NCBI GenBank assembly: GCA_026398275.1
Contig: JAPLTF010000072.1
Coordinates: 1-64,000 of the forward strand
Source: Verrucomicrobiota bacterium
GTDB lineage: Bacteria > Verrucomicrobiota > Verrucomicrobiia > Chthoniobacterales > Terrimicrobiaceae
Length of the DNA stretch: 64,000 nucleotides
Reading direction: 5' to 3'
Part shown: in pieces, positions 30,225 through 48,200 of the stretch
Layout: each line of letters begins with the position of its first letter
Numbering within the stretch: position 1 is the stretch's first letter
The notes under the pieces: model-generated
The model's database searches: none
What the model saw: only the letters and a program-made list of their open reading frames with translations
What the model was told of the DNA's origin: nothing
Program-made: the position numbers and the translations under genes

Positions 30225-31301
30225 ATGAACGCCAAACAAAACAGAGACGCCTCCTCGCCCACTGAAACCCCTTCGACGCTGTCGCGGGCAGCCTGGATGC
30301 AGGACGGGAAATTCGGCCTGATGGTGCATTGGATTCACCCCTCCGTCCCACCGAAAGACGGCGAAAGGGAAACCGATTTCCAACGCGCGGTGGATGCATT
30401 CGACATCGATCTTTTTCTCAGCGACTTCGACAAAACCCAGGCCGACTGGCTCGTTTTCACCATCGGGCAGAACACCGGTTTTTACGCGAGTCACAATCAG
30501 ACGGCCGATCGCCTTCTCGGGCCGGGACACACGTCCCAGCGCGATTTGGTCATGGAGATCGCCCGGCAGATCAAGGCCCGCAACAAACGCTTCATCGCCT
30601 ACTTGCCCTGCATCGTGACCCACGCCGGCGACGAGCTCAGAACCTTGTTCGGGTGGACGACGGAGGCAAACACCACGCCGGAGGTTTTTTGCGAACGTTA
30701 CTCGCAGTTCATTCGCGATTTTGCGGTGCGTTTCGGAACTCTGCTGGATGGATGGTGGTTCGATGGGGCCTTGGACGACTTTCACTATCCACAAATCTGC
30801 AACCAGCCCTTCATGGAGGCTGCGAGGGCCGGGAATCCCATGGCGGCCGTGGCCTTCAACGACGGTGCCGCCTGCGTTGGCTCCACAAAGGCGACCGAGG
30901 GGCAGGACTACATGGCCGGCGAAACCGAAGTTGTGATCGGCGGGAAAATCCGCAATGGCCGGGCCACCGATGCGCCGCTGCTGGATCCGCGCACGCACCG
31001 CCCGGCACCACCCGCGTCCTGCCTGTGGCACGCTCTGGTTCCCATCGACTGCTATTGGGGTCACGGAAACAGCTTTTTGCCGGAACATAACTTGCCGGCC
31101 CCGGTCCCTCCCTACCAGGCGGGCCGGATGGAGCCGCCGCTTTATTCCACGGACGATCTCGCCACGCTGGTCTCCGATTTCAAGGCGGCGGGTGGCGGGG
31201 TGACCTTTAATGTTGGCATTTTCCAGGAGGGAGGGCTCGGCCCCAAAACCGTTGCCCAGCTGAACGAATTGGCCGTGATGGTTGGGAATGACAATTCGTA
31301 A
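30225..31301 (+). CDS. Alpha-L-fucosidase-like protein, family GH29-related
   Basis: From ATG 30225 the protein has 358 residues. It opens with Trp-Met-Gln-Asp-Gly-Lys-Phe-Gly-Leu-Met-Val-His-Trp, the hallmark N-terminal barrel segment of GH29-like proteins, and has Leu-Asp-Gly-Trp-Trp-Phe-Asp-Gly with Asp180 in the nucleophile position. It lacks the usual C-terminal beta domain and the standard Tyr-His-Asp-Gly-Phe element, which here reads Gly-Gln-Asn-Thr-Gly-Phe. It is thus a short, divergent member and activity on fucose should not be assumed. It follows the GH127 gene by 25 bases and ends this enzyme series. Confidence 0.72.
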   Translation: MNAKQNRDASSPTETPSTLSRAAWMQDGKFGLMVHWIHPSVPPKDGERETDFQRAVDAFDIDLFLSDFDKTQADWLVFTIGQNTGFYASHNQTADRLLGPGHTSQRDLVMEIARQIKARNKRFIAYLPCIVTHAGDELRTLFGWTTEANTTPEVFCERYSQFIRDFAVRFGTLLDGWWFDGALDDFHYPQICNQPFMEAARAGNPMAAVAFNDGAACVGSTKATEGQDYMAGETEVVIGGKIRNGRATDAPLLDPRTHRPAPPASCLWHALVPIDCYWGHGNSFLPEHNLPAPVPPYQAGRMEPPLYSTDDLATLVSDFKAAGGGVTFNVGIFQEGGLGPKTVAQLNELAVMVGNDNS

Positions 31302-31390
31302 CCGGATTCCCAGAAGTGCTGACACGAATAAAACAAGCTGAACCTTTCCCCATGCGTATCCTCCACCTCCACCTCACCACCTCAAGAACT

Positions 31391-33760
31391 ATGAAAAATA
31401 TCCGAACCAACGTAATCCTGCGCCTTGCGCTGCCCCTGCTGGGGATTGTCCTGCTACTTCCTGGCTGCTCGCCGCGGGGCGAGGCTCCTGCGAAGCCCAT
31501 TGCGCTCACTGATAATGGCACCACCGCTTACCGGATCGTGCTTCCAGACGAAGCGAAATCCTATGAGCAGACGGCGGCGGACCAACTCGCCTTGTATCTC
31601 GGAAAAATCACCGGAGCCACCTTCCCGGTGGTGAAGGAAAGCGAGGCCACGGGCAATGTCCCGGTCCTCTCGGTCGGCCTGACGAAACGCTTCGAGCAGG
31701 CCTTCCCGGACGTAGATGTGACGAAGCTCAAGCCCGACAGCCTCATCATGAAAAGCAAAGGCAAGGACTTCTTTTTTGCGGGCGAGGGGACCCGCGGGAC
31801 GATCTACGCCGCGAACACCTTTCTCGAAGATGTCTGCGGGGTCCGCTGGTGGACGCCGTTTGAGGAGACCGTGCCGAAAAATCTTGAGCTCGCCGTGGCG
31901 CCGCTCGACACAGTCTATGAGCCGCCGTTTCTCTACCGCGATACCCACAGCCAGGTCTTCACCGGCACCTGGGTCGCGACCCGGTTCCACAAATCCACCA
32001 AGGGGCTCGCCGAGCGCCGTCAGTTTGCCGCGCGCCTGCGCAACAACGGCAACGTCAACATCCCGGAGGCCTGGGGCGGAAGCCGGAATGTCGTGATGAG
32101 CGACAAATGCTACCGGACCTTCGAGCAGTTCATCGGGCCGCACGAGTTCTTCAAGACACACCCCGAATGGTTTCAGGGCGGGGCTTCCCACCTCACCCAG
32201 CTTTGCCTTTCCAACGAGGCGATGCGCGCGGAGTTCCTCAAGCGCGCCAAAGCCTGGGTCGATGCCGCTCCAGACCAGACGATGTTTGTCATCATGCACA
32301 ATGACAACCTGAACTACTGCAAGTGCAAGGACTGCGCCGCCATCGACGAGGCCGAGGGGTCGCCCGCCGCCTCGCAGGTCCGCTTCATGAATTACCTGGC
32401 CGAAGAACTGGACAAACACCGTCCGGGGATCGAGCTGGTCATGGACGCCTACAACTACTCGACCAAGCCTCCGTCCATCACCAAACCGGCCGACAACCTT
32501 ATCATCATGCTTTGCACGCCGATCATATCCCAACTCGTGGCCGACGATTCCGAGTTCATGAAACAATGGGAGGACTGGAAAGCGGTGACTTCGCGCGTCC
32601 TCATCTGGGATTACACGGTCAACTTCGGCAGCTTCGTCAACCCTTATCCGAACCTCTATCAACTCGGCCCCAACATCAAAACATTTGCCGCCAACGGCGC
32701 CATCGGGGTGCTCGAGCAGGGGAATATTTTCAACTCGGTCGCGGACGCCGACGAATTAAAATCGTGGGTGATCGCGCACCTGCTCTGGGATCCGTCATTG
32801 GATGATAAAGCCCTCATCTCGGAATTTGTGACAGGCTACTACGGAGCGGCGGCTGGGCCGGTCAGGGACTATCTCGATCTCATCGCCCGCAAGGGAGCCT
32901 CGACCAAGAAGCAGGGCGAGACGGCGATTGCCTTTCTCGACCTCGCGGCCATGAATGAGGCCACCCGGATGCTCGATGAGGCGCAGGCCAAAGCCCAGGG
33001 CGACCCCGCGCTGGAGGAGAGAATCGCACGCATCCGTTTCACCCTCGACCACCAATGGTTGCTTGAGTGGCGCCAATACCGCACGGAAGCCGACACCAAG
33101 GGCTTGCCATTTGCCGGCCCCGAAACCGCACAGAAGGCCCTGGATATCGTCCGCGCCGCCGCCGCCCGGTTCGGCTCAACGCACTACCAAGAAGAATACG
33201 GGTGGGGAACAATGAAGCAGCACCTGGACGGGATCCAGCAGGTTCTCGACGCATCCGTCGGAGGCAAGCCGCTCCCGCCGCCCTACGACAAAGTCGCGCC
33301 GGAAGACCAGATCCAGATTCAGGAAGGTTTGTTCAAGCTCAGCTCGAGTGCGGAGGTCGTCGCGGATCCTCTGGCTTCCGACGGCAGAGCAGCGAAGTCG
33401 CCGACCACGCATCGCGAATGGAACATCCAGGTCTGGCGGACGTTCTTCCGGACGCTGCACCGCATGACTGGCGTCGAGGGCAAGTGGAAATGTCTCCTCC
33501 TCGTGCGGGCCGACGCCAAGGTGCCCAAAGGGCCCGCTATGCAGATGGGGATCTACAGCTGGGGCAACCCCAAGGTGCGTCCACAAAAGACGGTCTCCAT
33601 CGAGGATCTTACCCCCGATGCCTACACCCCGATCGAAGTCGGCTCAATCGACCTCGGCACAGACGCCCTCTTGAACACCGATGTCTGGGCCGGCCCGCTC
33701 GAGAATCCGAACGAGGTGAGCGCCATCTACGTCGATCGCGTGGTCTTCATCCGGGAGTAG
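31391..33760 (+). CDS. DUF4838 lipoprotein (paralogue 1)
   Basis: Starting at ATG 31391 gives 789 residues with a lipobox Leu-Pro-Gly-Cys (Cys26). The mature part contains a GH20-like N-terminal alpha/beta domain (about 45-150, with Glu-Gln-Thr-Ala-Ala-Asp-Gln-Leu) and the DUF4838 domain. Its signature here is Arg-Asn-Asn-Gly-Asn, His-Asn-Asp-Asn, and Cys-Lys-Cys-Lys-Asp-Cys. A C-terminal beta-sandwich (from about 650) completes it. DUF4838 proteins are TIM-barrel-like, common in Verrucomicrobiota and Bacteroidota, and probably glycosidase-related. The whole protein is duplicated in the next gene. An upstream ATG at 31352 is rejected because it would bury the lipoprotein signal. Confidence 0.85.
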   Translation: MKNIRTNVILRLALPLLGIVLLLPGCSPRGEAPAKPIALTDNGTTAYRIVLPDEAKSYEQTAADQLALYLGKITGATFPVVKESEATGNVPVLSVGLTKRFEQAFPDVDVTKLKPDSLIMKSKGKDFFFAGEGTRGTIYAANTFLEDVCGVRWWTPFEETVPKNLELAVAPLDTVYEPPFLYRDTHSQVFTGTWVATRFHKSTKGLAERRQFAARLRNNGNVNIPEAWGGSRNVVMSDKCYRTFEQFIGPHEFFKTHPEWFQGGASHLTQLCLSNEAMRAEFLKRAKAWVDAAPDQTMFVIMHNDNLNYCKCKDCAAIDEAEGSPAASQVRFMNYLAEELDKHRPGIELVMDAYNYSTKPPSITKPADNLIIMLCTPIISQLVADDSEFMKQWEDWKAVTSRVLIWDYTVNFGSFVNPYPNLYQLGPNIKTFAANGAIGVLEQGNIFNSVADADELKSWVIAHLLWDPSLDDKALISEFVTGYYGAAAGPVRDYLDLIARKGASTKKQGETAIAFLDLAAMNEATRMLDEAQAKAQGDPALEERIARIRFTLDHQWLLEWRQYRTEADTKGLPFAGPETAQKALDIVRAAAARFGSTHYQEEYGWGTMKQHLDGIQQVLDASVGGKPLPPPYDKVAPEDQIQIQEGLFKLSSSAEVVADPLASDGRAAKSPTTHREWNIQVWRTFFRTLHRMTGVEGKWKCLLLVRADAKVPKGPAMQMGIYSWGNPKVRPQKTVSIEDLTPDAYTPIEVGSIDLGTDALLNTDVWAGPLENPNEVSAIYVDRVVFIRE

Positions 33761-33929
33761 ACCGAAAACTTATGGGCACGCCCGGATCCAAACGCGAACC
33801 GAAGCCATGGCGGCGACAACCGATTCCAGAAAACGGAAGTGCAGGGGAGGCTCCCATGAATAAGTCCGCGAAGGAAAGCACCCCCAAGCATTTCATGACG
33901 TCTCAATCGCATCAAAGCCTCCGGGTCCC

Positions 33930-36512
33930 ATGCTGAAGCTTCTTCGAATTCTTGGGGTTTTGATCGTGGTGCTCGTCGGATCCGTGAAGCTGGCCTCGGG
34001 CGCGGTTCTGCCTGGCGCCCAAGTCCTGAGGGAATCCGTCGAGGTCACTCATGTCGGGCAGACAAAGGGCATTCCCCATGAATCGACCGACATACGTGAG
34101 ATGGCGAGGACCGTGATGATGAAGGAGGCTTTGTCGGCTGTGGCGAAGGTGCCAGAGGAAGAACCGTCGGCCCCGTCCACCAAAGGGTCAACGGATCCAG
34201 TCGCCCGACGGGTTCCCGGCACCTCTCCGCAGAAGCCTCTCGGCACCTCGATTTCGCTCAGTCAAAAAGGACTGGCCCCGCACACCATTGTGGTTCCGGA
34301 CGAGGCGAAGGACTATGAGCAGACGGCGGCGGAGCAACTCGCTTTGTATCTTAACAAAATCACGGGAGCGGATTTTCCGGTGATGAAGGAAAGCGAGGCC
34401 CCGGCCGCCGGCCCGGTCATCTCAGTCGGCCTGACGAAACGTTTCGAGCAGGCCTTCCCGGAGATCAACGTGGAGAAGCTCAAGCCCGACAGCATCGTCA
34501 TGAAAAGCAAAGGCAAGGACTTCTTCTTTGTCGGCGAGGGAACCCGCGGGACGATCTACGCGGCAAACACCTTTCTCGAAGATGTTTGCGGGGTCCGATG
34601 GTGGACGCCGTTTGAGGAGACCGTGCCGGAGAATCCGGATCTCGCCGTGCCGCCGCCCGACAAGATTTATGAGCCGCCATTCCTCTACCGCGACACCCAC
34701 AGCCAGGTCTTCACCGGCACCGTTCTCGCGACCCAATATCAAAATGTGACCGAGGGGCTGGCCGAGCGCCGTCAGTTTGCGGTGCGCCTGCGCAACAATG
34801 GCAACGTCAATATCCCGGAGGACTGGGGCGGGAGCCGCAATCTCGTGATGAGCGACAAATGCTACCGGACATTCGAGCAGTTCATCGGCCCCCGCGAGTT
34901 CTACAAGACGCACCCCGAGTGGTTCCAGGGCCAGGCCTCCCACCAGACCCAGCTCTGCCTTTCCAACGAGGCCATGCGCGCCGAATTCCTCCAGCGGGCC
35001 AAGGCCTGGGTCGATGCCGCGCCGGACCAGACGATGTTTGTCATCATGCACAATGACAACAACAGCTTTTGCCAATGCAAGGACTGCGCCGCCATCGACG
35101 AGGCCGAGGGTTCGCCCGCTGCCTCGCAGGTCCGCTTCATGAATTTCCTCGCCGAAGAACTGGACAAGCACCGTCCGGGGATCGAACTCGTGATGGACGC
35201 CTACGCCTACTCGACCAAGCCGCCGTCGATCGCCAAGCCGGCGCCGAACCTGATCATCATGCTCTGCACGACGATCCAATCGCAGATCGTGGCCGACGAT
35301 GCGGAGTTCATGAAAAAATGGGAGGACTGGAAGGCTGTCACGTCGCGCATTCTCGTCTGGGACTACACGGCCAACTTCGCCAACTTCGTCAACCCGTATC
35401 CGAACCTCCACCAACTCGGACCCAACATCAAAACTTTTGCCCGGCAAGGCGCGGTCGGGGTGCTCGAGCAGGGGAATGTTTTCAACTCTGTCGCGGATGC
35501 GGACGAATTGAAATCCTGGGTGATCGCGCACCTGCTCTGGGATCCGTCGCTGGACGAAAATGCGCTGATCCCGGAATTCGTGACCGGCTACTACGGAGCC
35601 GCAGCCGGGCCGGTCATGGCCTATCTCGATCACATCGTCCGCAGCGGTGCCTCGACGAAGAAGCAGGGTGAGACGGCGATTGCTTTCCTCGATCTTGTGG
35701 CCATGAACGAGGCCACGTGCTTGCTCGATGAGGCGCAGGCCAAAGCCAAGGGCGACCCCGCGCTGGAGGAGAGAATCGCGCGCCTTCGCTTCACCCTCGA
35801 CCACCAATGGCTGCTTGAGTGGCGGCAATACCGGGCCCAAGCCGACCGTGACGGCCTGCCCTTTCTCGGCCCCGAAACCGCGCAGAAAGCCCTTGAAATC
35901 GTCCGATCTGCCACGGCCCGTTTCCGGTCAACCCACGACTCCGAGCACTATGGGTGGGGAACCATGAAGCAGCACCTGGACACGATCCAGCAGGCGCTCG
36001 ACCCCACCACCGAAGTCAAGCCGCTCCCGCCGCCCTATGACAAGGTCGCGCAGGAAGATCAGATCCAGGTTCAGGAGGACCTCTTAAGGATCAGCTCGGG
36101 CGCGAGCATCGTTGAGGATCCTCCGGCCTCAAATGGCAGCGCCGTGATGTCGCCCGCCACCCATAAGGATTGGAACATCCAGATTTGGCGGACGTTCTTC
36201 CGGACGCTGCGCCGCATGACCGGTGTTGAGGGCAAATGGAAATGCCTCATCTTCGTGCGGGCCGATGCCAAAGCCGAATCCGGGCCCGCGATGCAGATGG
36301 GGATCTTCAGCCACGGAAATCCTGCCGTGCGTCCCGAGAGGAAGGTTGCCCTCGAGGAACTCGCCCCCGATGCCTATACGCCTATCGAGGTGGGCTCACT
36401 CGACCTCGGGACCGATGCCCTCTTGAACACCGACGTCTGGGCCGGCCCGCTGGATAACCCCGAGGACGTCAGTGCCATTTACGTCGACCGCGTGGTTTTC
36501 ATCCGGGAGTAG
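33930..36512 (+). CDS. DUF4838 secreted protein (paralogue 2, with N-terminal insertion)
   Basis: The 860-residue protein matches the preceding gene almost throughout, from the Glu-Gln-Thr-Ala-Ala segment to the identical final Val-Val-Phe-Ile-Arg-Glu. Its N-terminus differs: instead of a lipobox it has a signal-peptide-like helix (residues 1-25), then ~80 extra residues, hydrophilic and Pro/Ser-rich, before homology begins. The extra part contains a DNA inverted repeat (34148-34223). The Cys-Gln-Cys-Lys-Asp-Cys cluster and the His-Asn-Asp-Asn motif are kept. It appears to be a tandem duplicate exported by a different route (periplasm or outside rather than lipid-anchored). The 169 bases between the paralogues hold only a doubtful 54-codon frame. 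Confidence 0.83.
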   Translation: MLKLLRILGVLIVVLVGSVKLASGAVLPGAQVLRESVEVTHVGQTKGIPHESTDIREMARTVMMKEALSAVAKVPEEEPSAPSTKGSTDPVARRVPGTSPQKPLGTSISLSQKGLAPHTIVVPDEAKDYEQTAAEQLALYLNKITGADFPVMKESEAPAAGPVISVGLTKRFEQAFPEINVEKLKPDSIVMKSKGKDFFFVGEGTRGTIYAANTFLEDVCGVRWWTPFEETVPENPDLAVPPPDKIYEPPFLYRDTHSQVFTGTVLATQYQNVTEGLAERRQFAVRLRNNGNVNIPEDWGGSRNLVMSDKCYRTFEQFIGPREFYKTHPEWFQGQASHQTQLCLSNEAMRAEFLQRAKAWVDAAPDQTMFVIMHNDNNSFCQCKDCAAIDEAEGSPAASQVRFMNFLAEELDKHRPGIELVMDAYAYSTKPPSIAKPAPNLIIMLCTTIQSQIVADDAEFMKKWEDWKAVTSRILVWDYTANFANFVNPYPNLHQLGPNIKTFARQGAVGVLEQGNVFNSVADADELKSWVIAHLLWDPSLDENALIPEFVTGYYGAAAGPVMAYLDHIVRSGASTKKQGETAIAFLDLVAMNEATCLLDEAQAKAKGDPALEERIARLRFTLDHQWLLEWRQYRAQADRDGLPFLGPETAQKALEIVRSATARFRSTHDSEHYGWGTMKQHLDTIQQALDPTTEVKPLPPPYDKVAQEDQIQVQEDLLRISSGASIVEDPPASNGSAVMSPATHKDWNIQIWRTFFRTLRRMTGVEGKWKCLIFVRADAKAESGPAMQMGIFSHGNPAVRPERKVALEELAPDAYTPIEVGSLDLGTDALLNTDVWAGPLDNPEDVSAIYVDRVVFIRE
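34148..34223. repeat. Imperfect inverted repeat inside a coding region
   Basis: GGTGCC (34148) and AACCGTCGG (34162) on the left pair with CCGACGGGTT (34205) and GGCACC (34218) on the right, with one bulged base. This gives a stem of about 15 pairs within the extra N-terminal segment of the second DUF4838 gene. It looks like a small palindromic element that remained in frame. Confidence 0.6.
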
Positions 36513-36563: not shown

Positions 36564-37973
36564 TCACTGGGCAGGCGTCGCCTCCGATTTCAAGCCCACA
36601 CTGTTGACGGTGAAAACGCTATATTTGTGGGGCTCCCCGGGCTTGGCGGTATCATCGACATACTTCATCTCGGCGAGCGGCGGGCTGGGGGAATCGCTGT
36701 AGCCGTTCTTTTGAAAAGTCGGACGACCAATGGAATGCACCCCCGGCGAAGGTGCCGCCGAGACCACCCAGTAGCCGTTCTTTTGAAAAATCGGACGACC
36801 ATTGGGGTCGGTGGGTGTTTCCGGAACGCGGGCGAGTTCCTTGCCATCGCGTTCGATGATGAAACCGGCAATGCCGCTTTCGAAATCGGCCTCCGCCTGC
36901 CACGTCAGGGTGTTGTCGGCACGCTGCACTTCGATGGGCGCGGGTGGCGGCGTAGTATCGGACACATTGCCATCCTTGACATACTCCGCCCAGGCTTTGG
37001 CGACCCGATCATTGGGGAGCCAGACCGAGGCTTTGACGTCGCCCGAGAATATCGCGGCAGGCTGGGCGGCATCGCCGAGCAACGGCGCGAGATATGCGCC
37101 TTCGGTGGGCATGGCTTTTAACTTGGTGTCACCCCCATTGCCGAGACGGGCGCCGAGGCAGGCATCAAACCACGGGATGGCAAGGTAGCGCTGATTGTTG
37201 CAGTCGTGGCTGCTGTTGGGGTCGACCGACACCCCGATGAGACTGCCCTTGGATCGCATCTCCCGGAAGAAGACTTCATTTCCAGCCCATACGCCGCCGA
37301 ACTGGCCATCCTTGACCGTCACGCCTTCTTTGGTGCCGAGATTGCACATTACAGGCACCTGACACGCGGCTTCGGAGATGCTGTAAGGCGCGGTTTTGCC
37401 TTCCGCCGCTTTGACCAGAGGCGCACCGGAGCGCAACCATGCCGCGGCAACGCGCTCCGGATGAAGCAGCACCATGGCGCCCGCCCAATACCCGCCACCG
37501 CTGTGTCCCCAGAGTGCCCAGGGCACGTTGGCCAGTTCCGGATGCCCGCTCTTGCTTCCCAGGTCGCTCAAGGATTTTTGAAAGGCGACATCGGATCCGT
37601 TGCGAGGATCGTACCACATCCGGCAGCTGGCTTTTTCCGGCTGTTCGTAGGATGGCGAGAGCAATGCGCAGTCGTATTTCTTCGCGAGTGCCTGCCAGTG
37701 GAGATCGTAGGCGCCGGTTTGTCCGGACTTGCAGGAGCCTTCGCCGCAACCGTGTTGATGGACAATCACTCCCCGCAAGTTCTTCACTCCATTGGGCACC
37801 CACAGGGTGTAAGTCACCGGATAGATCAGCTCGCCTTCCCTGGTGGAAGCTTCATACCGCACGCGATAGTAGGGAGCGTCGGCAGGCGGAGGCTTGTCAT
37901 AGGGAGGCTGCTGGGCGGCCAGAGAGCCGGTGAGGGCAACCAAGAGGAGGGCGGTGAGTTTGCGTTTTGTCAT
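36564..37973 (-). CDS. Secreted alpha/beta-hydrolase with C-terminal fibronectin-type region
   Basis: The 469-residue protein has a signal peptide (about 1-20), then an esterase-like domain with His-Gln-His-Gly-Cys-Gly (oxyanion region), Trp-Gly-His-Ser-Gly-Gly-Gly (nucleophile elbow near residue 165), and Ser-Ser-His-Asp-Cys for the histidine. After about residue 345 comes a fibronectin-III-like segment opening with Asp-Thr-Thr-Pro-Pro-Pro-Ala. Within this an octapeptide-like stretch Phe-Gln-Lys-Asn-Gly-Tyr occurs twice, from an in-frame 35-base DNA repeat. Likely a polysaccharide esterase or related hydrolase. It converges with the DUF4838 pair; 51 bases separate the stop codons. Confidence 0.8.
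36699..36805. repeat. In-frame 35-base direct repeat, period 72
   Basis: A 35-base unit starting GTAGCCGTTCTTTTGAAAA appears at 36699 and 36771, differing at a few positions. The 72-base period equals 24 codons, so the reading frame is kept, and the encoded Gly-Arg-Pro-x-Phe-Gln-Lys-Asn-Gly-Tyr is repeated in the C-terminal region of the secreted hydrolase. Confidence 0.8.
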
Positions 37974-40001: not shown

Positions 40002-40019
40002 TTGCCTTGTTGAAGCCAA

Positions 40020-40093
40020 CGTCCCCGATGAGGTATCCCTGCTTGCTTCTGGCATCCGAGCCTGCTCCGCAGGCGAAATGCCAGAAGTGCCGC
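40020..40093. repeat. Dispersed palindromic repeat, copy A
   Basis: The segment begins CGTCCCCGATGAGG and holds a stem: CTTCTGGCAT pairs with ATGCCAGAAG around an inner CCTGC/GCAGG. The first ~34 bases match copy B at 43201 with only a few differences. It lies just upstream of the S9 peptidase gene and downstream of the creatininase-family gene. Confidence 0.8.
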
Positions 40094-40115
40094 AAGTGGA
40101 CTGGCTTTTTCGGCC

Positions 40116-40877
40116 TCATGTGTTCAAAGAATTATTCTTAAGGTATTCGACCAACACATCGACTGTTTCTTTGATACATTGACGGCCTGCAGCTTCTGTC
40201 GCGCCATGCGCATTGCCCAAGATCCCATTGGGGCTAAGAGCATCAATACCACTCTGAAGGAGAACAGCCACTCGCTCTTGAGTCAACTCACCAAGAAATC
40301 CTGATTCAATGAGATCGGAACGCACGAGTTCAGGGTGTAAAGCGAGCATGATTGAGGTTTCTGCAATATCGGCATGGCCGCCAACGCGGTTGCCTAAACC
40401 CAACCCGGCCTCGATAACACGGCGCCAAATAGCAATCTGTGCAGCAAGATCAGTAAATGCGACGACTTTTGTGTCGGGTGCTACCGCTTGATTGAGTTTA
40501 GACAGAGATTTGTGCAGCGGACCAAAATTCCCTCCATGAGATGGAATCAAAAAGATCGTATTGAAACCATGTCGAGCCAAACTGGTGCAATAGTCCAAAC
40601 AAAGCTCTGTAAAAGTGCTTTCTCTCAACGAGATCGTTCCAGGGAAATTCATGTGAATTGCCGAACAGCCAACTTGAATAGTTGGTGCCCAGAGGGCGCT
40701 GCCCAAACGGAGAGCGACTTCCTTGGCAAGTGTGGAGCCGTGTTCGGAGTCGACAAATAGCGGGAGGTGAGGACCATGCTGTTCGATGGCTCCGCAAGCG
40801 ACAACGATAGTTTCGTAGCCGGATGTAATTGCATGGCGCACTTCGCGCGATGTCATGCGTGCGAGTTCAATATTCAT
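40116..40877 (-). CDS. Creatininase-family amidohydrolase
   Basis: From ATG 40877 the protein is 253 residues, the family length. Motifs are Gly-Ala-Ile-Glu-Gln-His-Gly-Pro-His-Leu-Pro, Asp-Ser-Glu-His, Ser-His-Gly-Gly-Asn-Phe-Gly, and Gly-Gly-His-Ala-Asp with a nearby Glu-Thr-Ser; these Glu, His and Asp residues bind two metals. Family members include creatininase, MftE-like and formamide hydrolases, so the substrate is open. The frame could extend to 40907, but that start lies inside the attC-like site. Low G+C compared with the enzyme operons. It is the gene immediately downstream of an integron-like recombination site. Confidence 0.88.
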   Translation of the reverse strand: MNIELARMTSREVRHAITSGYETIVVACGAIEQHGPHLPLFVDSEHGSTLAKEVALRLGSALWAPTIQVGCSAIHMNFPGTISLRESTFTELCLDYCTSLARHGFNTIFLIPSHGGNFGPLHKSLSKLNQAVAPDTKVVAFTDLAAQIAIWRRVIEAGLGLGNRVGGHADIAETSIMLALHPELVRSDLIESGFLGELTQERVAVLLQSGIDALSPNGILGNAHGATEAAGRQCIKETVDVLVEYLKNNSLNT

Positions 40878-40901
40878 GATGAAGTGCGCTGTGTATTTAT
40901 T

Positions 40902-41013
40902 GCCCAACGTTTGCGATCACCGCACCTGCCCGTGGCGCGATCCGTGCCGGGAGCGAAGTGACCAAGCACGGAGCATGACGCGGGTGGGTCTTCGGCGGAT
41001 CGCATAGTTGGGC
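40902..41013 (-). other. Integron attC-like recombination site
   Basis: Read on the minus strand the site begins GCCCAAC (R'', fits RYYYAAC) and ends GTTGGGC (R', fits GTTRRRY). After R'' come five spacer bases and GATCCGCCG; before R' come six spacer bases preceded by CGGTGATC. The two L boxes pair with one extra unpaired base. The remaining interior also folds on itself. Spacer sizes, extrahelical base and 112-base length are those of attC sites. It follows the stop codon of the deaminase-GNAT gene by 33 bases in the same orientation, exactly where a gene cassette carries its attC. Confidence 0.72.
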
Positions 41014-41046: not shown

Positions 41047-42009
41047 CTACTTGATTCGGGGTGGGCCGATCAGGGTTGCCACCATTGTTCCATTTTGCTC
41101 GCTTGCTGTATCCACCCGGAAGCCCAAGCGTTCATACAAACGAATAGCCTTTCGATTACTGCTCTGAACATGCGTCCGTATCACCTGCTGCTGCGGAATC
41201 GCGGCGCTGCAGAGAGCGTGTCTGAGAAGGACTCTGAAGACGCTGCCGTTTTGGTGCTGCCTAGACACCTGAATTGAAGACAGGTAAATCTCGTGTGGAT
41301 TGTCCCATCCCGGGCCATATTCGAGGTAACCGAGCAACGACCCCGCATCATCAGTGACCATAAGGATAGTTCCAGGGTGGTCAAAGGCCTGCTTTCTCCG
41401 TTCTTCCGGCATAGAGCAGCCCATCGCCGAGAAAATCGCCTCCATGTTCTCGCGGTCAAGTCGGAGGATCGCCTCCATCTCCGCTGTGTTTGTTAGGCTT
41501 TGACGATCAAAAGAGACCAGACGCATATTCCGGTGCCCAACGCTCAAGATAGCCGACAGCGGGGCGTGCGCAGCACTACGCGTGCCAGCTGTGGTCATTG
41601 GCTGTAACGACTGGCTGGTTGATGGAATCAGCCAATGATGCGGCAGCAAATCTCCCAGCCTTGCTGTCCGGCCTCCATCTAAAATCACAATCGACTCGGC
41701 GTTTCGTGGATCGATCTGCATGAGAAACTCTCTACAGCGACCGCAAGGCGATAATATGCAGTCATCTGCAACTGCCACAATCATTTGAATCTGGGTCTCG
41801 CCCGCCTTGATCATCTCTGCGGCGGCGGCATGTTCCGCGCAGAAGCCAATACCGCAGCTAAGGTGGATACAAACCCCTGTGTAAATCTTTCCGCTGGAGG
41901 ACCGAATTGCGGCTGCCACCGTCGCCGCATCGAAATCTGGTCTTCCGAGAATAAGCCGTCTGACGAGCGGCCTCGCGGAATCAATAAGCTCTTGCAAATC
42001 GGGGTTCAT
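41047..42009 (-). CDS. Cytidine-deaminase-like / GNAT acetyltransferase fusion protein
   Basis: The 320-residue protein joins two enzymes. Residues ~1-135 are a cytidine/blasticidin-S-deaminase-type zinc domain with Cys57-Ala-Glu59 and Pro88-Cys89-Gly-Arg-Cys92, so all metal ligands and the catalytic glutamate are present. Residues ~160-318 are a GNAT N-acetyltransferase with the Arg-x-Tyr-Glu-Arg-Leu-Gly-Phe-Arg end motif. Both domains are types that inactivate nucleoside or amine-bearing antibiotics, but the substrates are unknown. The ORF is followed in the same orientation by an attC-like site, giving the layout of an integron gene cassette. It sits among three stand-alone GNAT genes with lower G+C than the flanks. 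Confidence 0.85.
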   Translation of the reverse strand: MNPDLQELIDSARPLVRRLILGRPDFDAATVAAAIRSSSGKIYTGVCIHLSCGIGFCAEHAAAAEMIKAGETQIQMIVAVADDCILSPCGRCREFLMQIDPRNAESIVILDGGRTARLGDLLPHHWLIPSTSQSLQPMTTAGTRSAAHAPLSAILSVGHRNMRLVSFDRQSLTNTAEMEAILRLDRENMEAIFSAMGCSMPEERRKQAFDHPGTILMVTDDAGSLLGYLEYGPGWDNPHEIYLSSIQVSRQHQNGSVFRVLLRHALCSAAIPQQQVIRTHVQSSNRKAIRLYERLGFRVDTASEQNGTMVATLIGPPRIK

Positions 42010-42039
42010 TATTTTTAAGCGAGCGTTCCCGGTCAGGTA

Positions 42040-42615
42040 TCACCACTTGCGTTTGGCGCACCGGCTGGTCATTTTTTCTTCCCATTGTTCGCGGGTTATC
42101 GAAAACAGATCCTCCTCCATCCATTGGCCATTCTTCTGGAAGCCTTCTGGAATGCGTTTGATGAAGTGTAAACCCGCTTTTTCGAGGACACGCCTACTCG
42201 CAATATTCCAAGTGGCATGAGCAGCTTGAATCTCAGACGCGCGAAGCTGCAGAAATCCATACTCAATCACCGCCAGTGTCGCCTCAGTCATATAACCCTG
42301 TTGCTGATGCAGCGGGTGTATCCAAAAACCCAAGTCCCATAGCGATCCAGTCTGGAAACGAATGACGATTCTCCCGAGGGGTTCCTCAGTGCTCCGGTTC
42401 TCGATGGTGAACGTATATGCATTACCTGACTGCCACGCCTGAGCATTAGCTTCGCACGGTGCAAGCAGCTCATCTTCTGTTTGTGGGGGGCTCCAACGCA
42501 TACCGTCACAGAATCCCTCGTAGCGACTTGCAGAAAACACAAAGGATATGTCTGACCTCGCGAAACGTCGCAGACGAAGGCGATCTGTGATGATTGTTGT
42601 ATCGGCGGAGATCAT
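42040..42615 (-). CDS. GNAT acetyltransferase, RimJ/RimL type
   Basis: The 191-residue protein starts with Ile-Ile-Thr-Asp-Arg-Leu-Arg-Leu-Arg-Arg-Phe, the usual opening of the RimJ/RimL group, and has the acetyl-CoA loop region Gln-Gln-Gly-Tyr-Met-Thr-Glu-Ala. It then has Asn-Ile-Ala-Ser-Arg-Arg-Val-Leu-Glu-Lys-Ala-Gly-Leu. Such proteins acetylate protein N-termini or small amines, including antibiotics. It lies 30 bases upstream of the deaminase-GNAT gene, in the same direction. The target is unknown. Confidence 0.88.
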   Translation of the reverse strand: MISADTTIITDRLRLRRFARSDISFVFSASRYEGFCDGMRWSPPQTEDELLAPCEANAQAWQSGNAYTFTIENRSTEEPLGRIVIRFQTGSLWDLGFWIHPLHQQQGYMTEATLAVIEYGFLQLRASEIQAAHATWNIASRRVLEKAGLHFIKRIPEGFQKNGQWMEEDLFSITREQWEEKMTSRCAKRKW

Positions 42616-42668: not shown

Positions 42669-43184
42669 TTACCTTTCATTTTTTATTTCAAGCGAAAAGA
42701 GAGGAGCATCAAGTCCATATAGAATCTCATTGCGTAAAAATGTAAATCCAAGCTTGGTCATGACGTGTAATGAGGATTTGTTCTCAGGGTGGGCGAAGGC
42801 GAATATGGTTCGTTCAGAAAAGAAGTCCTCCGCTACCTCAACCCATCTCGATGCAACCTCTGTCGCAAGACCCAAACCCCAATGACTTCGCGTGAGTCTG
42901 TAACCCAGCTCAACGCGCTTTCCATCGGGCAGGAAGACAAAGCCAGCATCGCCAATCGGTTTGTTTGATACCCTGTCAAGGATGATCCACTTGCTGAACC
43001 CATGAGCTTCCTGATGTGCGATATATCGTGCTATCCGAGCGGACGTCTGCGCCGGAGTGTGATCAGGACCATGTGGGATAAAACGCATCACCTCAGTGTC
43101 GCTCATCCAGGAAAAGACAGCGTCGGCATCCGCGAGAGAAAATGGGCGCAACAGAGTGCGAGGAGTCTCCAGTAGGCTGCGCAT
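42669..43184 (-). CDS. GNAT acetyltransferase, RimJ/RimL type
   Basis: The 171-residue protein opens with Leu-Leu-Glu-Thr-Pro-Arg-Thr-Leu-Leu-Arg-Pro-Phe and contains Gly-Tyr-Arg-Leu, Gly-Leu-Gly-Leu-Ala-Thr-Glu-Val (acetyl-CoA loop), and Asn-Lys-Ser-Ser-Leu-His-Val-Met-Thr-Lys-Leu-Gly-Phe, so it is a complete GNAT of the ribosomal-protein/small-molecule type. It is separated from the next GNAT by a 53-base hairpin and is preceded (upstream) by palindromic repeat copy B. Function is not predictable beyond acetyl transfer to an amine or hydroxyl. Confidence 0.88.
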   Translation of the reverse strand: MRSLLETPRTLLRPFSLADADAVFSWMSDTEVMRFIPHGPDHTPAQTSARIARYIAHQEAHGFSKWIILDRVSNKPIGDAGFVFLPDGKRVELGYRLTRSHWGLGLATEVASRWVEVAEDFFSERTIFAFAHPENKSSLHVMTKLGFTFLRNEILYGLDAPLFSLEIKNER

Positions 43185-43200
43185 GACAAATGTTCCTTAA

Positions 43201-43298
43201 CGTCCCCGATGAGGAATCTCCGCTTGCTTCTGGCGTGCTTTCTGCCCGCGCAGCGGGATCAGCAGAAAGCATGACAGAAGTCCCGACGGGACGGGGAT
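43201..43298. repeat. Dispersed palindromic repeat, copy B
   Basis: Like copy A it begins CGTCCCCGATGAGG and continues into CTTGCTTCTGGC. It then forms a longer stem: TGCTTTCTGC pairs with GCAGAAAGCA, with an inner CCCGC/GCGGG, and CTTCTG pairs with the later CAGAAG. It lies between two GNAT genes on the minus strand. The open frames crossing it are an effect of the repeat, not genes. Confidence 0.82.
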
Positions 43299-43330
43299 TT
43301 GCTCCATCGGTCTGCTCGATTTTTGATTTT

Positions 43331-43768
43331 TCAGTAGAGTATCCATCGATATCTGCACTTCTGTCTCTCCCCCTCTTGATACTGGTTGTTTTCAGGTGGC
43401 AGATCAACAATCTCAACTAATGTTGCTCCGATCCACTCGCATGTTTTTCGGGACGGCCAGTTATCCGGATTGCAGGTAATCCACAGCACATCCATTCCGT
43501 GCGCTCGGGCTATCGGTATCAAAAGCCTGCATGCTTTGCCAGCATAGTGCTTGCCGCGCCAGTCCGGGTTAATCCCGTAGCCGAGATGGCCGCCGTAGCG
43601 AACCAAGCTCAAAGTGTAACCCAGTCGGATGTCGATCGTGCCAATTGTTTCCTGAGTGTCACTGCGAATAATATTGTAGTGCAGGGCGCGAAGCCATTCT
43701 TTCGCCGGATTGGCTGGCACGTCCCTGGCCAAGCGAAGCTCAATATCTTTATCAGCTAATGTCTGCAT
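43331..43768 (-). CDS. GNAT acetyltransferase
   Basis: The 145-residue protein has the GNAT core: Glu-Thr-Ile-Gly-Thr-Ile-Asp-Ile-Arg-Leu-Gly (beta 2-3), Gly-Gly-His-Leu-Gly-Tyr-Gly-Ile, Trp-Arg-Gly-Lys-His-Tyr-Ala-Gly-Lys-Ala (acetyl-CoA loop) and Asn-Trp-Pro-Ser-Arg-Lys-Thr-Cys-Glu. It is the fourth acetyltransferase domain in about 3 kb. Upstream, 243 bases separate it from the truncated GH2 copy; a reading frame there continues from that fragment but resembles nothing I know. Confidence 0.85.
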   Translation of the reverse strand: MQTLADKDIELRLARDVPANPAKEWLRALHYNIIRSDTQETIGTIDIRLGYTLSLVRYGGHLGYGINPDWRGKHYAGKACRLLIPIARAHGMDVLWITCNPDNWPSRKTCEWIGATLVEIVDLPPENNQYQEGERQKCRYRWILY

Positions 43769-44013
43769 TTCATTGTCGAACAGGTGGTTAAGCCAGTCTG
43801 AATAGCCACCCGATCCGGGGTGTTATCCGACACCGTGAGATCGTCTGCTCGCCTATGGATTGCGAGCGTATCGAGGGATTTCTGGAAGTCGAACCGCGCA
43901 TTATCCTGGAGATTATCCGAGGGCGAATTCGTCAAATGGCTGCGCAAACGAAATGGACTGGAGATCCGCGACGGGTGTGACGGGTGGGCGACGATGCCGG
44001 GCGCGTTGAAGCG

Positions 44014-44229
44014 GGCGTGCTTGCGGGTGAGCCGGTCGATCTCGTGCTCCAGCCAGGCCGCCCCGGATGGCGCGACGTAGGCCGACCGCACCGCATCGGG
44101 ATCGACGCCGCCGGCGCGCAGCCGTTTTGTGGGGATAGCGGCGGCAGGCACCGGGACGAGGCCAGCGCCGGCGCTGATGCGGGCCTGGGCGCCGATGGCG
44201 CCGAAAAGGTCGGACTGGTCTTGGCTCAT
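44014..44229 (-). pseudogene. Truncated 5' copy of the GH2 gene
   Basis: From ATG 44229 the first ~72 residues match the start of the GH2 protein (44844-47915), with a few substitutions such as Val for Ile and Val for Met. After Lys-His-Ala-Arg-Phe the similarity stops. The frame runs on through unrelated sequence to 43756 as an arbitrary tail. This is a decapitated duplicate rather than a functional enzyme, since it lacks all catalytic regions. Its upstream region is duplicated too, so it may still be transcribed. Confidence 0.8.
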
Positions 44230-44430
44230 GGGATATTCCGGGTGTCGAGGCTGATTGGGAATCGCTATTCGGGTGTCGAGGGCGGTTGGCAGAAGACTTT
44301 CATCATTTTCGATTCAGGGAGTGACCGGAACTTCAAATTTCTGGAACGCCGTGTCGCCACGATGCCAGCCAGCGCGAGGAGACGAGTGCGTAGAGGGTGA
44401 AAATCCACAGGCCTCGGAAAATTATTAAGG

Positions 44431-44448
44431 TATGATGACGTCATAATC
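44431..44448. promoter_or_regulatory. Operator-like palindrome in the duplicated upstream region
   Basis: TATGATGACGTCATAATC is an almost perfect palindrome around ACGT. It belongs to the TATGACGTCATA-like elements found at 20124, 48116, 48266, 53497, 61424, 61741 and beside the GntR gene. Here it would serve the truncated GH2 copy. Confidence 0.5.
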
Positions 44449-44502
44449 AATAAGCTCAAGTTGTTTTTTACATGGAATTGAAATATCAATAGGGAAGACC
44501 CC

Positions 44503-44663: not shown

Positions 44664-44849
44664 ACATGGATGCCCCCACGGTTTGTCATGAACAGCCTGC
44701 TGATTCCGGGAGGCATCATCCACGGTGCCTTCGGAACCGGGGGAGCGGCCATTACCATCTTCGGGCGCTATACCCTGCCGGAAAAGGAAGCCTTCCGCGG
44801 AAGCCTCTCGCTCATGTGGGTGATCCTCAACGTTGATGGTTTGTCATGA
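44664..44849 (+). pseudogene. Fragment resembling a TauE/SafE-family (DUF81) transporter
   Basis: The frame encodes Gly-Gly-Ile-Ile-His-Gly-Ala-Phe-Gly-Thr-Gly-Gly and then Glu-Ala-Phe-Arg-Gly-Ser-Leu-Ser-Leu-Met-Trp-Val-Ile-Leu-Asn. This resembles one repeat unit of sulfite-exporter TauE/SafE membrane proteins, which are normally ~250 residues. Only ~60 residues remain. The fragment is flanked by a 12-base direct repeat, GGTTTGTCATGA, at 44680 and 44838. It lies just past the stop codon of the GH2 gene. Confidence 0.55.
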
Positions 44850-47800
44850 TATGTCTGGTGTATGGCTGGGAAGCGGGTCGGGGGCACCGAGGAGGGCGTC
44901 GGCCAGGGTTCGTGCCGCAGGGTTGGTGGCGGTGCGCCCGGCCAGATCGACTTGGCAGATCACCAGATGCCCCTTTCCGAGCGGCCGTTCGGCGCAGGCG
45001 TAGGCCAGCGACCAATCCATGCCCCAGCCGCCGCGGCCCGAGATCAGCACCGGCCGCCAGCCGTCAACTGGCAGGATGAGTTTATCCAGCAGCGGGGTGA
45101 TGCGGCCGGCCGGGCCTTCATGCCAGAGGCGGATGTCGCCGGGAGCGAGTCCGGCGACCCAGGGATGACCGGTATCGCGGCTGACGGTGTGGCGAAGACC
45201 GAAGCCTGCCTCGACGATCTCCAGTTGATGGCCGAGGATCTCGTGGATGCCGATCGGCAGATTGAGGACGATCACCCGCGCACCGCGCTCGGCAGCAGCG
45301 AGAAGAGCCTTGGCCCGTTTTTTCAGTATCTCGGGTGAATCCACCAGGATGGCGTCGCCAGCTTTGGCCGTGGCGCAAGTGACCGACGCCAGGCCGAGTT
45401 CGGCCACCAGCCGTCTGGCTGGCCCGGCGTTGCCAAGCGCGCCCACGCGGGTTCGTGTGGTCACCGGCTTGGGCCAGATGCGGAACGCCTGCGAGCAGGA
45501 CTGAACGCCCTTGCCGCCGATGATCAGTTCGGCTTCGAGCACGGCGTCCTGCGGGGCGTTGACCGACGGCGCTTTGGCCGCCAGCAGTCCCAGTGCGGTC
45601 GCTTTCAGCGCTTGCGGCCTGGCGGTGAAATGCTGGGCGATCACGACATTGCCGGCGACGCGCAACCGCCAGCGCACCTGCACCGTGGCGGGCGGCTCGC
45701 CGGTGTCGTCGGCCAGCCACAACTCGGCCGCCAGCGGCTCGCCGGAGCGGTAGCCGGTGCGGTCGCTGCGCCAGGAAAGAGCCAGTGGGGCAAAGGCCTC
45801 GCGCAGGGCAAAGAACGCAGGCTTGGGCTGGCGCTCGACATCGACCAGGGCGAACATCATTCCGGAGGGGAAGTTGTCGATCAGCAGGTGGACGGCGCAG
45901 GACACCAGGCGGTCCTGACGACGCAGAGCATCGGCCACCGTCTGCACCGCCCAGGCCTGGTGCTTCTGGCTGGCCTCGACCCAGGCGGCCAGACCGCGCG
46001 GTTGCTCATACCACAAGTAATGGTAATCGCCGCTTTCCGGCAGGCGGGCCCAGCCGGGGACGCGCATTTGGTTGGGCGTCCAGGCGGCATCCTCCGCCGG
46101 GGTCTGCGGAAGCCAGCGGGCGGGATAGCGCTTGCGGGCGGTCTCGACCGCGTCCAGACCCTCGCTGCCAAATTCGCCGCAAGCGAAGCAGGTGTCGGGG
46201 GGCGAGGGCATCCATTCGCCGCGGATCAACCGGCCGAGCTCGAGGCCGTGGTTGAGATACCAGGTGCTGTAAAGGTGGTAGTCGGGCATGCCCGGTCCAG
46301 GCGGGAAGTAATCGCCGTCGATGGCCTTGACCGCGCGGTCGGGATTGACGATATGCACTAGGGATTCGGCGGCGCGGAAGAACTCCTCAAGCTCGCTTCG
46401 GGTGCAGACGCGCTCAGGCTGGAGACCCCATTCTGGGGGGAAGGGCTCGTTGATGAAGGTGATCTTCACCACGCTGGGATGCGGACGGACCAGTCGCTCC
46501 ATCTCGCCTGCCTGACGGACCGCTTCGGCCCACTGCGCGCGCGGCAGCTTGCCGAATAGCGGCAGGTCGGTCTGGAGCAGGATGCCCAGACGGTCGCACA
46601 TCGCATACACCTCGTCCTGCACCGGGCGCTGGGTCAGACGGAGGAAATTGAGATTCAGCGCCTTGGTGGTGAGCAGGTCGCGGATCAGGCCGTCGCGGTC
46701 GCCGGCGATCACCCGGAGCTGTTCGAAGCCCATGGTGTTCGAGCCGCGCAGGCGGATCTCGCGCCCGTTGAGCAGCGGCCGGTTGCGCGGCAGACGCGCC
46801 TGGTCGAGGACGAAGGTGCGCAGACCAAAAGCACGGCTGGCGGCATCCAGCGATGCGCCCGCTTCATCGACGAGTCGGACATCGCAGCGGTAGAGCCAAG
46901 GCTCGGCCGGGGTCCACGACTTGGCGCGGGGGATGGTCAGCGGGATGCGATACTGCGTCGGCCCAGGCCCGGCTGGGGTCTTGGGCCGATGTTCCAGCCG
47001 CACCACCCGGACCGCACGATGGTTGAGGCCGTGGACCTCGATCTCCAGTCGCACTGGTCCTGCTGAGGCAGCGGCCCGGTGGACCTCGATCCATGCCTCG
47101 ACCTTGCCGGTGTGGTCCAGGACGCGGATGAAGATATCGGCGATAAACGGATCGGGTCGTGCCTCCACGAAAGCCTCCTGCCAGATGCCCATGCCCGGCG
47201 GGCAGTGCCGCCAACCCTGGTCGGGATCGTCGAAGCCGGGGCCGGTGGCGGCATAGAGCTTGGGTCCCTCGAGCGGGGAGCCCCATGAACTGTTTCCAGT
47301 GCTCACCAGATCGTTCTCCACCTGGATGAGCAGGACATTGCGGCCCGGCTTCAGCCAGCGGCGACCATCGACCTCGATCGGCGCGAAGGCTCCTTCGTGG
47401 GTCGCCGCGGCTGCGCCGTTGAGATAGACGATCGCGCGGTAGTCCACCCCGCGCAGGACCAGCCACGGAGCCGAACCGGCGAACCATTCCCGATCGAGTT
47501 CGATTTCTCGCCGATACCAGGTGGTGGCGCGGCCGAGCGGCCCGGCGAAGTGGGGGACGGTGACGGTCTGCCAGTCACCTGTGCCGTCGTTCAGTGCTGC
47601 AAAGTCGTCAGCGTCGGTGCCGAGACGCCATTGCCATTCCCGGAGGGCGATCCGGCGGCGCTGGGGCGGAGCGGGCGGGGCGACCTCGCACAGGAAACGG
47701 GCGTGCTTGCGGGTGAGCCGGTCGATCTCGTGCTCCAGCCAGGCCGCCCCGGATGGCGCGACGTAGGCCGACCGCATCGCATCGGGATCGATGCCGCCGG

Positions 47801-47915
47801 CGCGCAGCCGTTTTGTGGGGATGGCGGCGGCAGGCACCGGGACGAGGCCAGCGCCGGCGCTGATGCGGGCCTGGGCGCCGATGGCACCGAAAAGGTCGGA
47901 CTGGTCTTGGCTCAT
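44844..47915 (-). CDS. Family GH2 glycoside hydrolase
   Basis: The 1023-residue protein has a ~110-residue Ala-rich N-terminus, a sugar-binding jelly-roll with Leu-Arg-Gly-Val-Asp-Tyr-Arg-Ala-Ile-Val-Tyr-Leu-Asn-Gly (about 170-190), an Ig-like domain, and a TIM barrel. In the barrel, Ile-Asn-Glu490-Pro is the predicted acid/base site and Cys-Gly-Glu581-Phe-Gly the probable nucleophile. A C-terminal region of more than 300 residues adds beta domains and an alpha/beta segment. The family includes beta-galactosidases, beta-mannosidases and glucuronidases. No signal peptide is visible. Its 5' end and upstream region are duplicated 3.7 kb away. Upstream lies an operator-like site (48116). It runs opposite to its neighbours and is probably a separately acquired unit. 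Confidence 0.85.
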   Translation of the reverse strand: MSQDQSDLFGAIGAQARISAGAGLVPVPAAAIPTKRLRAGGIDPDAMRSAYVAPSGAAWLEHEIDRLTRKHARFLCEVAPPAPPQRRRIALREWQWRLGTDADDFAALNDGTGDWQTVTVPHFAGPLGRATTWYRREIELDREWFAGSAPWLVLRGVDYRAIVYLNGAAAATHEGAFAPIEVDGRRWLKPGRNVLLIQVENDLVSTGNSSWGSPLEGPKLYAATGPGFDDPDQGWRHCPPGMGIWQEAFVEARPDPFIADIFIRVLDHTGKVEAWIEVHRAAASAGPVRLEIEVHGLNHRAVRVVRLEHRPKTPAGPGPTQYRIPLTIPRAKSWTPAEPWLYRCDVRLVDEAGASLDAASRAFGLRTFVLDQARLPRNRPLLNGREIRLRGSNTMGFEQLRVIAGDRDGLIRDLLTTKALNLNFLRLTQRPVQDEVYAMCDRLGILLQTDLPLFGKLPRAQWAEAVRQAGEMERLVRPHPSVVKITFINEPFPPEWGLQPERVCTRSELEEFFRAAESLVHIVNPDRAVKAIDGDYFPPGPGMPDYHLYSTWYLNHGLELGRLIRGEWMPSPPDTCFACGEFGSEGLDAVETARKRYPARWLPQTPAEDAAWTPNQMRVPGWARLPESGDYHYLWYEQPRGLAAWVEASQKHQAWAVQTVADALRRQDRLVSCAVHLLIDNFPSGMMFALVDVERQPKPAFFALREAFAPLALSWRSDRTGYRSGEPLAAELWLADDTGEPPATVQVRWRLRVAGNVVIAQHFTARPQALKATALGLLAAKAPSVNAPQDAVLEAELIIGGKGVQSCSQAFRIWPKPVTTRTRVGALGNAGPARRLVAELGLASVTCATAKAGDAILVDSPEILKKRAKALLAAAERGARVIVLNLPIGIHEILGHQLEIVEAGFGLRHTVSRDTGHPWVAGLAPGDIRLWHEGPAGRITPLLDKLILPVDGWRPVLISGRGGWGMDWSLAYACAERPLGKGHLVICQVDLAGRTATNPAARTLADALLGAPDPLPSHTPDIS

Positions 47916-48200
47916 GGGATATTCCGGGTGTCGAGGCTCATTGGGAATCGCTATTCGGGTGTCGAGGGCGGTTGGCAGAAGACTTTCATCATTTTCGATT
48001 CAGGGAGTGACCGGAACTTCAAATTTCTGGAACGCTGTGTCGCCCCGATGCCAGCCAGCGCGAGGATACGAGTGCGTAGAGGGTGAAAATCCACAGGCCT
48101 CGGAAATTATTAAGGTATGATGACGACATAACCAATAAGCTCAAGTTGTTTTTACATGGAATTGAAATATCAATAGGGAAGAACCGACCCCGATCTCGGA
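47698..48200. repeat. ~500-base direct repeat, copy 2
   Basis: This copy covers the start of the intact GH2 gene and about 285 bases upstream of it, and matches 44012-44508. It carries five extra bases near its right end compared with copy 1. The rest of the gap up to 48316 holds only the promoter elements listed here. Confidence 0.9.
48116..48133 (-). promoter_or_regulatory. Operator-like element and possible promoter for the GH2 gene
   Basis: On the minus strand GGTTATGTCGTCATCATA is preceded by TTGAGC about 10 bases earlier, which could be the -35 box, with TCATAC as -10 at an 18-base spacing. The core TTATGTCG is identical to the element next to the GntR gene (63861-63873). Positioned ~200 bases before the GH2 start codon. 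Confidence 0.45.

Follow-up and report, generated by a model that had tools for sequence, protein, structure and literature searches.

A zinc deaminase and a GNAT acetyltransferase in one reading frame of a Verrucomicrobiota cassette array: likely read-through of two adjacent integron cassettes

In-frame fusion of gene cassettes is known from class 1 integrons, as illustrated by AAC(3)-Ib/AAC(6')-Ib' and AAC(6')-30/AAC(6')-Ib' (PMC3656343). Blasticidin S, in turn, is inactivated through deamination or through acetylation, and some fungi use both routes (PMC4664946). Here we describe a gene from a 64,000-nucleotide stretch of Verrucomicrobiota DNA (positions 1 to 64,000 of contig JAPLTF010000072.1, hereafter the window) in which a zinc deaminase and a GNAT acetyltransferase occupy one reading frame. 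Like the AAC pairs, this gene appears to join neighbouring cassettes in frame and combines two resistance-type enzymes. However, the AAC pairs unite two acetyltransferases in clinical Pseudomonas, whereas the present gene puts a deaminase together with a GNAT, belongs to a Verrucomicrobiota array and is known from sequence alone. Fused two-enzyme cassettes are already known, and the fusion by itself is a modest addition to them; what is new is the combination of a deaminase and a GNAT in one. A literature search that lay mostly outside subscription journals returned no described deaminase-GNAT protein.

The fusion gene (41047..42009) is located on the minus strand, where it starts with an ATG at 42009 and ends at 41047, and codes for 320 amino acids that comprise a deaminase domain, a linker and a GNAT domain, as defined by the ORF list, the translation and profile matches. 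Translation of the assembled sequence shows no internal stop or frameshift, in agreement with the first-pass annotation that had placed both domains in a single frame. The deaminase domain (residues 1-127; 41629..42009, minus strand) has the blasticidin S / cytidine deaminase fold, as indicated by profiles, a PDB sequence match and an AF2 model. Its zinc site is complete, as had also been claimed, with Cys57-Ala58-Glu59 encoded at 41833..41841 and Pro88-Cys89-Gly90-Arg91-Cys92 at 41734..41748, both on the minus strand and both seen in the translation and in alignments, which for the first part were to solved deaminases. Family profiles recognise this half at scores that remain under their thresholds; specifically, it reaches 24.2 bits against Pfam PF00383 (E 3e-5, just below the 25-bit cut-off), while the best NCBIfam cytidine-deaminase model gives E 3e-14 and all of these models stay under their curated cut-offs (53 vs 74 bits; 46 vs 113.65 bits). 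Against PDB sequences it matches a blasticidin S deaminase at E 4e-12. AF2 predicts this half with a pLDDT of ~95, and the top eleven Foldseek matches to the model are all blasticidin S deaminases, the best at 2e-8.

Blasticidin S deaminase (BSD; PDB 1wn5, 2z3g, 3oj6) is thus both the best structure match and the best single-sequence match of the window deaminase, and the two have in common the fold, the zinc site (CxE, PCxxC) and the stretch ILSPCGRCR. There are also several differences. Identity is only ~30%, the N-x-Y found upstream of the zinc site in BSD is C-x-H in the window protein, and BSD has no GNAT half, whereas the window protein carries one and has a substrate that is predicted only. 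Tetrameric cytidine deaminase (Cdd, TIGR01354) likewise has the same fold and zinc ligands, but it is against this model that the window protein scores 46 bits relative to a cut-off of 113.65, and the ribose-binding Asn-x-Glu of Cdd is missing. In cytidine deaminase this motif recognises the ribose 3'-OH. In the window protein it is replaced by Cys47-x-His49, which aligns with the N-x-E of 1jtk and whose Cys47 is invariant in 12/12 aligned members of the subfamily, and this makes plain cytidine doubtful as a substrate. A canonical cytidine deaminase of pyrimidine salvage with an incidental GNAT tail would account for the fold, the zinc site and the E value of 3e-14 with NCBIfam models. We nevertheless regard this as quite improbable and rejected it on the sub-cut-off scores with every curated model and on the missing Asn-x-Glu; a second deaminase homologue in the host genome (33% identity) also argues against it.

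The GNAT domain (residues 162-320; 41050..41526, minus strand) begins with an ATG of its own at 41526-41524, and is defined by Pfam PF00583 (44 bits, cut-off 20.7), by the reading of the junction and by the fold of this half alone. As the GNAT half is poor in the full-length AF2 model it was folded separately, and residues 162-320 modelled from Met162 adopt a GNAT fold (pLDDT 82.5) with a first strand at model residues 2-7 and with matches to GNATs throughout the PDB. The description of this half as an intact GNAT therefore holds for the profile score and for the ability of the domain to fold alone, but not for the acyl-CoA loop. The motif A of this loop, usually [Q/R]xxGx[G/A], reads QNGSVF in the window protein, with the central glycine changed to serine. 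This glycine is retained in 19/19 aligned GNAT relatives, one of which (L164) also has the Phe at the last position, and its loss makes acetyl transfer uncertain. The best PDB sequence match of the GNAT half is PA4866 (PDB 2bl1), a putative phosphinothricin-type GNAT (E 7e-6), to which it has low identity and from which it differs by the altered CoA loop. Relative searches, plasmids included, returned generic GNATs and no close relative of this half.

Evidence for how the two halves came together is found at the junction. The GNAT gene is preceded by a core site (R'), GTTGGGC, at 41535..41541 on the minus strand, which conforms to the rule that a GTTRRRY box marks each of the two boundaries of an integron cassette (PMC3053210). 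This box is located within the ORF between the two domains, 8 nt ahead of the ATG of Met162, and similar core-to-start distances are seen in other cassettes of the host genome. The gene is followed by an attC of 112 nt (40902..41013, minus strand) that extends from R'' GCCCAAC to R' GTTGGGC, forms a long stem, folds at z -3.84 and has the top score in a de novo attC scan for which crude shuffles served as the control. The identical heptamer GTTGGGC at 41541-41535 and at 40908-40902 thus bounds the GNAT gene as a 633-bp unit, and the R'' is complementary to the 5' core site at 7/7 positions, from which we conclude that the GNAT half is a canonical cassette. As for the chance occurrence of this box, the minus strand of the 64-kb window has five copies of GTTGGGC, and only 10 out of 200 codon-shuffled versions of the ORF contain one at any position.

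The linker (residues 128-161, ~34 aa; 41527..41628, minus strand) has a pLDDT <50 for residues 131-160 and appears to be encoded by a degenerate attC, as it occupies the position of the attC in the nearest deaminase relative on the tree. This relative (L049) is a single-domain deaminase of 80% identity from a MAG labelled Akkermansia. Its gene runs straight into a well-formed attC, the R'' of which (AGCGAAC) overlaps the last codons at the position where the window linker starts. As this gene is frameshifted near the N-terminus, we treat it as evidence of cassette anatomy and not of function. Positional alignment to this R'' gives a candidate degenerate R'' for the attC of the deaminase cassette, AGCCAGT at 41610..41616 (minus strand), which lies 82 nt from the end of the core site, recurs as a heptamer at 40106-40100 and is poorly complementary to the core site. 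A degenerate core site, GCTCGCT at 42018..42024 (minus strand), is located 8 nt ahead of the deaminase ATG as the putative 5' boundary of the deaminase cassette, and is complementary to the R'' AGCGAAC of L049 at 6/7 positions. The junction attC itself folds no better than shuffles (z -0.33 and +0.18), with the core site present and the R'' and stem degenerate, and it was missed by an ad hoc attC scan that recovered strong sites only. Thus a cassette-fusion origin is likely, not proven, and what speaks for it is the shared core box together with L049 rather than the stem. Specifically, we consider it probable that the fusion arose by translational read-through of two adjacent integron gene cassettes.

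The cassette-like setting noted earlier is confirmed as an array of codirectional genes with attC-like hairpins between them. Three GNATs are present upstream, all assigned by Pfam and all on the minus strand (42040..42615 and 42669..43184, both Acetyltransf_3, and 43331..43768), and an attC-like hairpin with R' GTTAAGG is found between two of these cassettes (43195..43310, minus strand; z -4.84). Downstream, the next cassette codes for a creatininase-family amidohydrolase (40116..40907, minus strand; PF02633, E 1.6e-59) and ends in an attC-like site with R'' AGCCAGT and R' GTTGGCT (40014..40106, minus strand; z -3.6), and an S9 peptidase gene is also present on this side. The other attC-like sites of the array are weaker than that at 41013-40902 or are degenerate. 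An integron integrase, IntI, is coded by the same genome (402 bits, over the curated cut-off) on another contig (C43), where it has its own short array, and no intI was found on the window contig (C116), so that the window array is an attC cluster without a linked integrase (CALIN-type). An artefact of assembly that joined two separate genes could be suspected in a draft of 117 contigs, but we judge it highly improbable given that the join coincides precisely with a cassette core site, lies inside a 163,729-bp contig away from its ends, and has an orderly cassette boundary on either side.

In addition to the heptamers, a 36-bp element is common to 40018-40053, 42022-42057 and 43199-43234 (75-92%), all intergenic, and resembles a stretch at ~7125-7155 of L011, on the integrase contig, that lies ahead of a core site. 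This element is probably one side of an attC type common to these sites.

We also analysed how far the fusion extends beyond the host. A peptide-pattern search of genome contigs found no relative of the whole fusion; plasmids matched the deaminase half alone, with no match to the whole fusion and none at the DNA level; phages gave a single weak deaminase match and no whole fusion, and viral contigs a single weak match. Genome-wide analysis of the 80 nearest deaminase relatives revealed none with a fused GNAT, although four are preceded by long open frames that do not resemble domains, and this fusion is likewise absent from the 212 other genomes analysed in the order of the host. Thus, as far as seen, this fusion appears to be lineage-specific. 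Rfam gave zero matches in the 64-kb window and PADLOC matched no defence family.

The pairing itself, for which the first-pass annotation knew no characterised protein, does have natural counterparts in other genomes, where more distant members of this deaminase subfamily are joined to other GNATs in the identical and in the reverse order. The deaminase-GNAT order is exhibited by L028 (genome G329), with an ORF of the same length in G643, and the GNAT-deaminase order by five genomes of another class (G037, G043, G049, G267 and G630). An ORF of ~540 aa (L032, G049:C27) contains an AadA/ANT-type nucleotidyltransferase followed by a GNAT and then the deaminase, and so carries three resistance-type domains. 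The fusions at L028, L030, L032, L036 and L037 combine, as the window protein does, these two domain families in a single polypeptide, but they contain different GNATs, mostly in reversed order, and occupy separate places on the tree. A GrpB-family protein is also fused to the same deaminase subfamily (L041, G133:C62), with a GNAT gene 23 nt downstream. As side observations, a further GNAT gene overlaps the end of the L032 ORF (gap -17 nt), and in L043 an ORF at 3570-4442 consists of a PepE-like N-terminal stretch, by inspection, and a GNAT, and the mixed row of genes around it includes the deaminase and another GNAT.

Separate genes show a similar association. A GNAT follows the deaminase as its immediate codirectional neighbour, no more than 100 nt away, in 9/40 cases relative to 12/438 for other neighbours (Fisher p 1.2e-5), a comparison in which GNAT detection by an iterated profile seeded with some of the tested neighbours somewhat favours the deaminase group; Pfam confirmed 5/5 of the adjacent GNAT partners submitted. 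Redundancy was removed by greedy thinning, as single linkage merged nearly everything, and the enrichment had a median p of 6e-4 after thinning at 70% identity and of 0.03, with small counts, at 60%. On the deaminase tree, which is poorly resolved, linkage to a GNAT requires ~14 changes and fusion requires five, the latter with a label set that includes the GrpB fusion. On this tree the deaminases of L015, from a genome of the host's class, and of L046 are identical, which assigns the host to the class of Roseibacillus persicicus and thereby to Verrucomicrobiota. The partner GNATs belong to several subfamilies and thus imply no single shared substrate.

These results bear on whether the two halves work together. 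A selected, cooperative enzyme in which both halves act on the same nucleoside-type antibiotic would be compatible with a cassette origin, and is suggested by the convergent pairing in L028, in the five genomes with the reverse order and in L032, by the enrichment of GNATs as the next gene and its persistence at 70% thinning, by the number of label changes on the tree, and by the fungi that both deaminate and acetylate blasticidin S. However, the partner GNATs come from different subfamilies, the enrichment weakens at 60% thinning, the CoA loop of the window GNAT is altered and the window fusion has been seen in just a single genome, so that we consider such an enzyme rather unlikely. An accidental and neutral read-through, also compatible with a cassette origin, has a considerably better chance of being correct, though somewhat less than an even one; here the deaminase would work alone and the GNAT would either be made from its own ATG or be decaying. 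A linker of just 34 codons could easily be open by chance, the GNAT has that ATG 8 nt past the core site, several attC sites of the array are degenerate and the motif A glycine is lost. On the other hand, the full 320-codon frame is intact and the same pairing recurs in other genomes.

Under the preferred reading, that of translational read-through of two adjacent cassettes, the deaminase cassette would have no stop before its degraded attC, and its frame would stay open across this attC and GTTGGGC and enter the cassette behind, which holds a complete GNAT gene that has a start codon of its own. Translation would yield a protein of 320 aa made up of a zinc deaminase, a flexible attC-encoded linker and an acyl-CoA N-acyltransferase fold. 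Glu59, with zinc bound by Cys57, Cys89 and Cys92, would release an exocyclic amine by hydrolysis. The compound deaminated in this way would probably be a cytosine-type antibiotic or another modified nucleoside rather than plain cytidine, and the GNAT, if it still binds acyl-CoA, may transfer an acyl group to an amine on that compound or on a different one. Judged from its residues, deamination of a cytosine-type compound by this protein is probable and acetylation by the GNAT half is possible, but with QNGSVF and the replaced Asn-x-Glu each half may turn out to lack activity or to use a different substrate. Cooperation between the halves is unproven. Expression of the fusion protein, its two activities and its substrate are predictions, and we infer that detoxification is its most likely role. 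The proposal that this is a bifunctional resistance protein accordingly needs to be divided. A role in resistance or detoxification is reasonable, as BSD is the nearest solved structure and members of the subfamily are found repeatedly with GNATs and in one case with an AadA-type nucleotidyltransferase. A bifunctional role is plausible because either deamination or acetylation inactivates blasticidin S; a purpose-built enzyme, however, explains the gene less well than attC read-through.

A bolder possibility, which we regard as unlikely and slightly more so than the cooperative enzyme, is that a stop-less deaminase cassette lets the cassette behind it decide the C-terminal domain. The array would then act as a domain shuffler, which in this case would have given a bifunctional deaminase-acetyltransferase for cytosine-type antibiotics, a combination reached several times in evolution. 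Were the GNAT cassette lost, the frame would read GTT GGG CAA TAA and end in the leader of the next cassette. In an environmental lineage, the fusion offers an example of how integrons could make multi-domain enzymes in which recombination sites are translated as linkers. Beyond this gene, an uncharacterised deaminase subfamily repeatedly partners GNATs across distant phyla; the repeated co-occurrence of these two enzyme types hints at a shared detoxification role, and the subfamily is a place to seek new enzymes of nucleoside-antibiotic resistance or detoxification.

Several repeats are present elsewhere in the window. A segment of ~460 bp is duplicated at 96-98% (44008-44468 and 47694-48153) and corresponds to the promoter and 5' end of a GH2-like gene (44844-47915), with the copy at 43756-44229 forming a truncated N-terminal ORF that adjoins the cassette array. 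In the region ~31200-36512, an 860-aa ORF (33930-36512) shares blocks of ~81% identity with the stretch immediately preceding it at a constant spacing of 2752 bp, as if by tandem duplication. Finally, an esterase-like ORF (36564-37973) contains a 35-bp sequence in direct repeat, with its copies 72 bp apart (36699-36805), which gives rise to a repeated RPxFQKNGY peptide.
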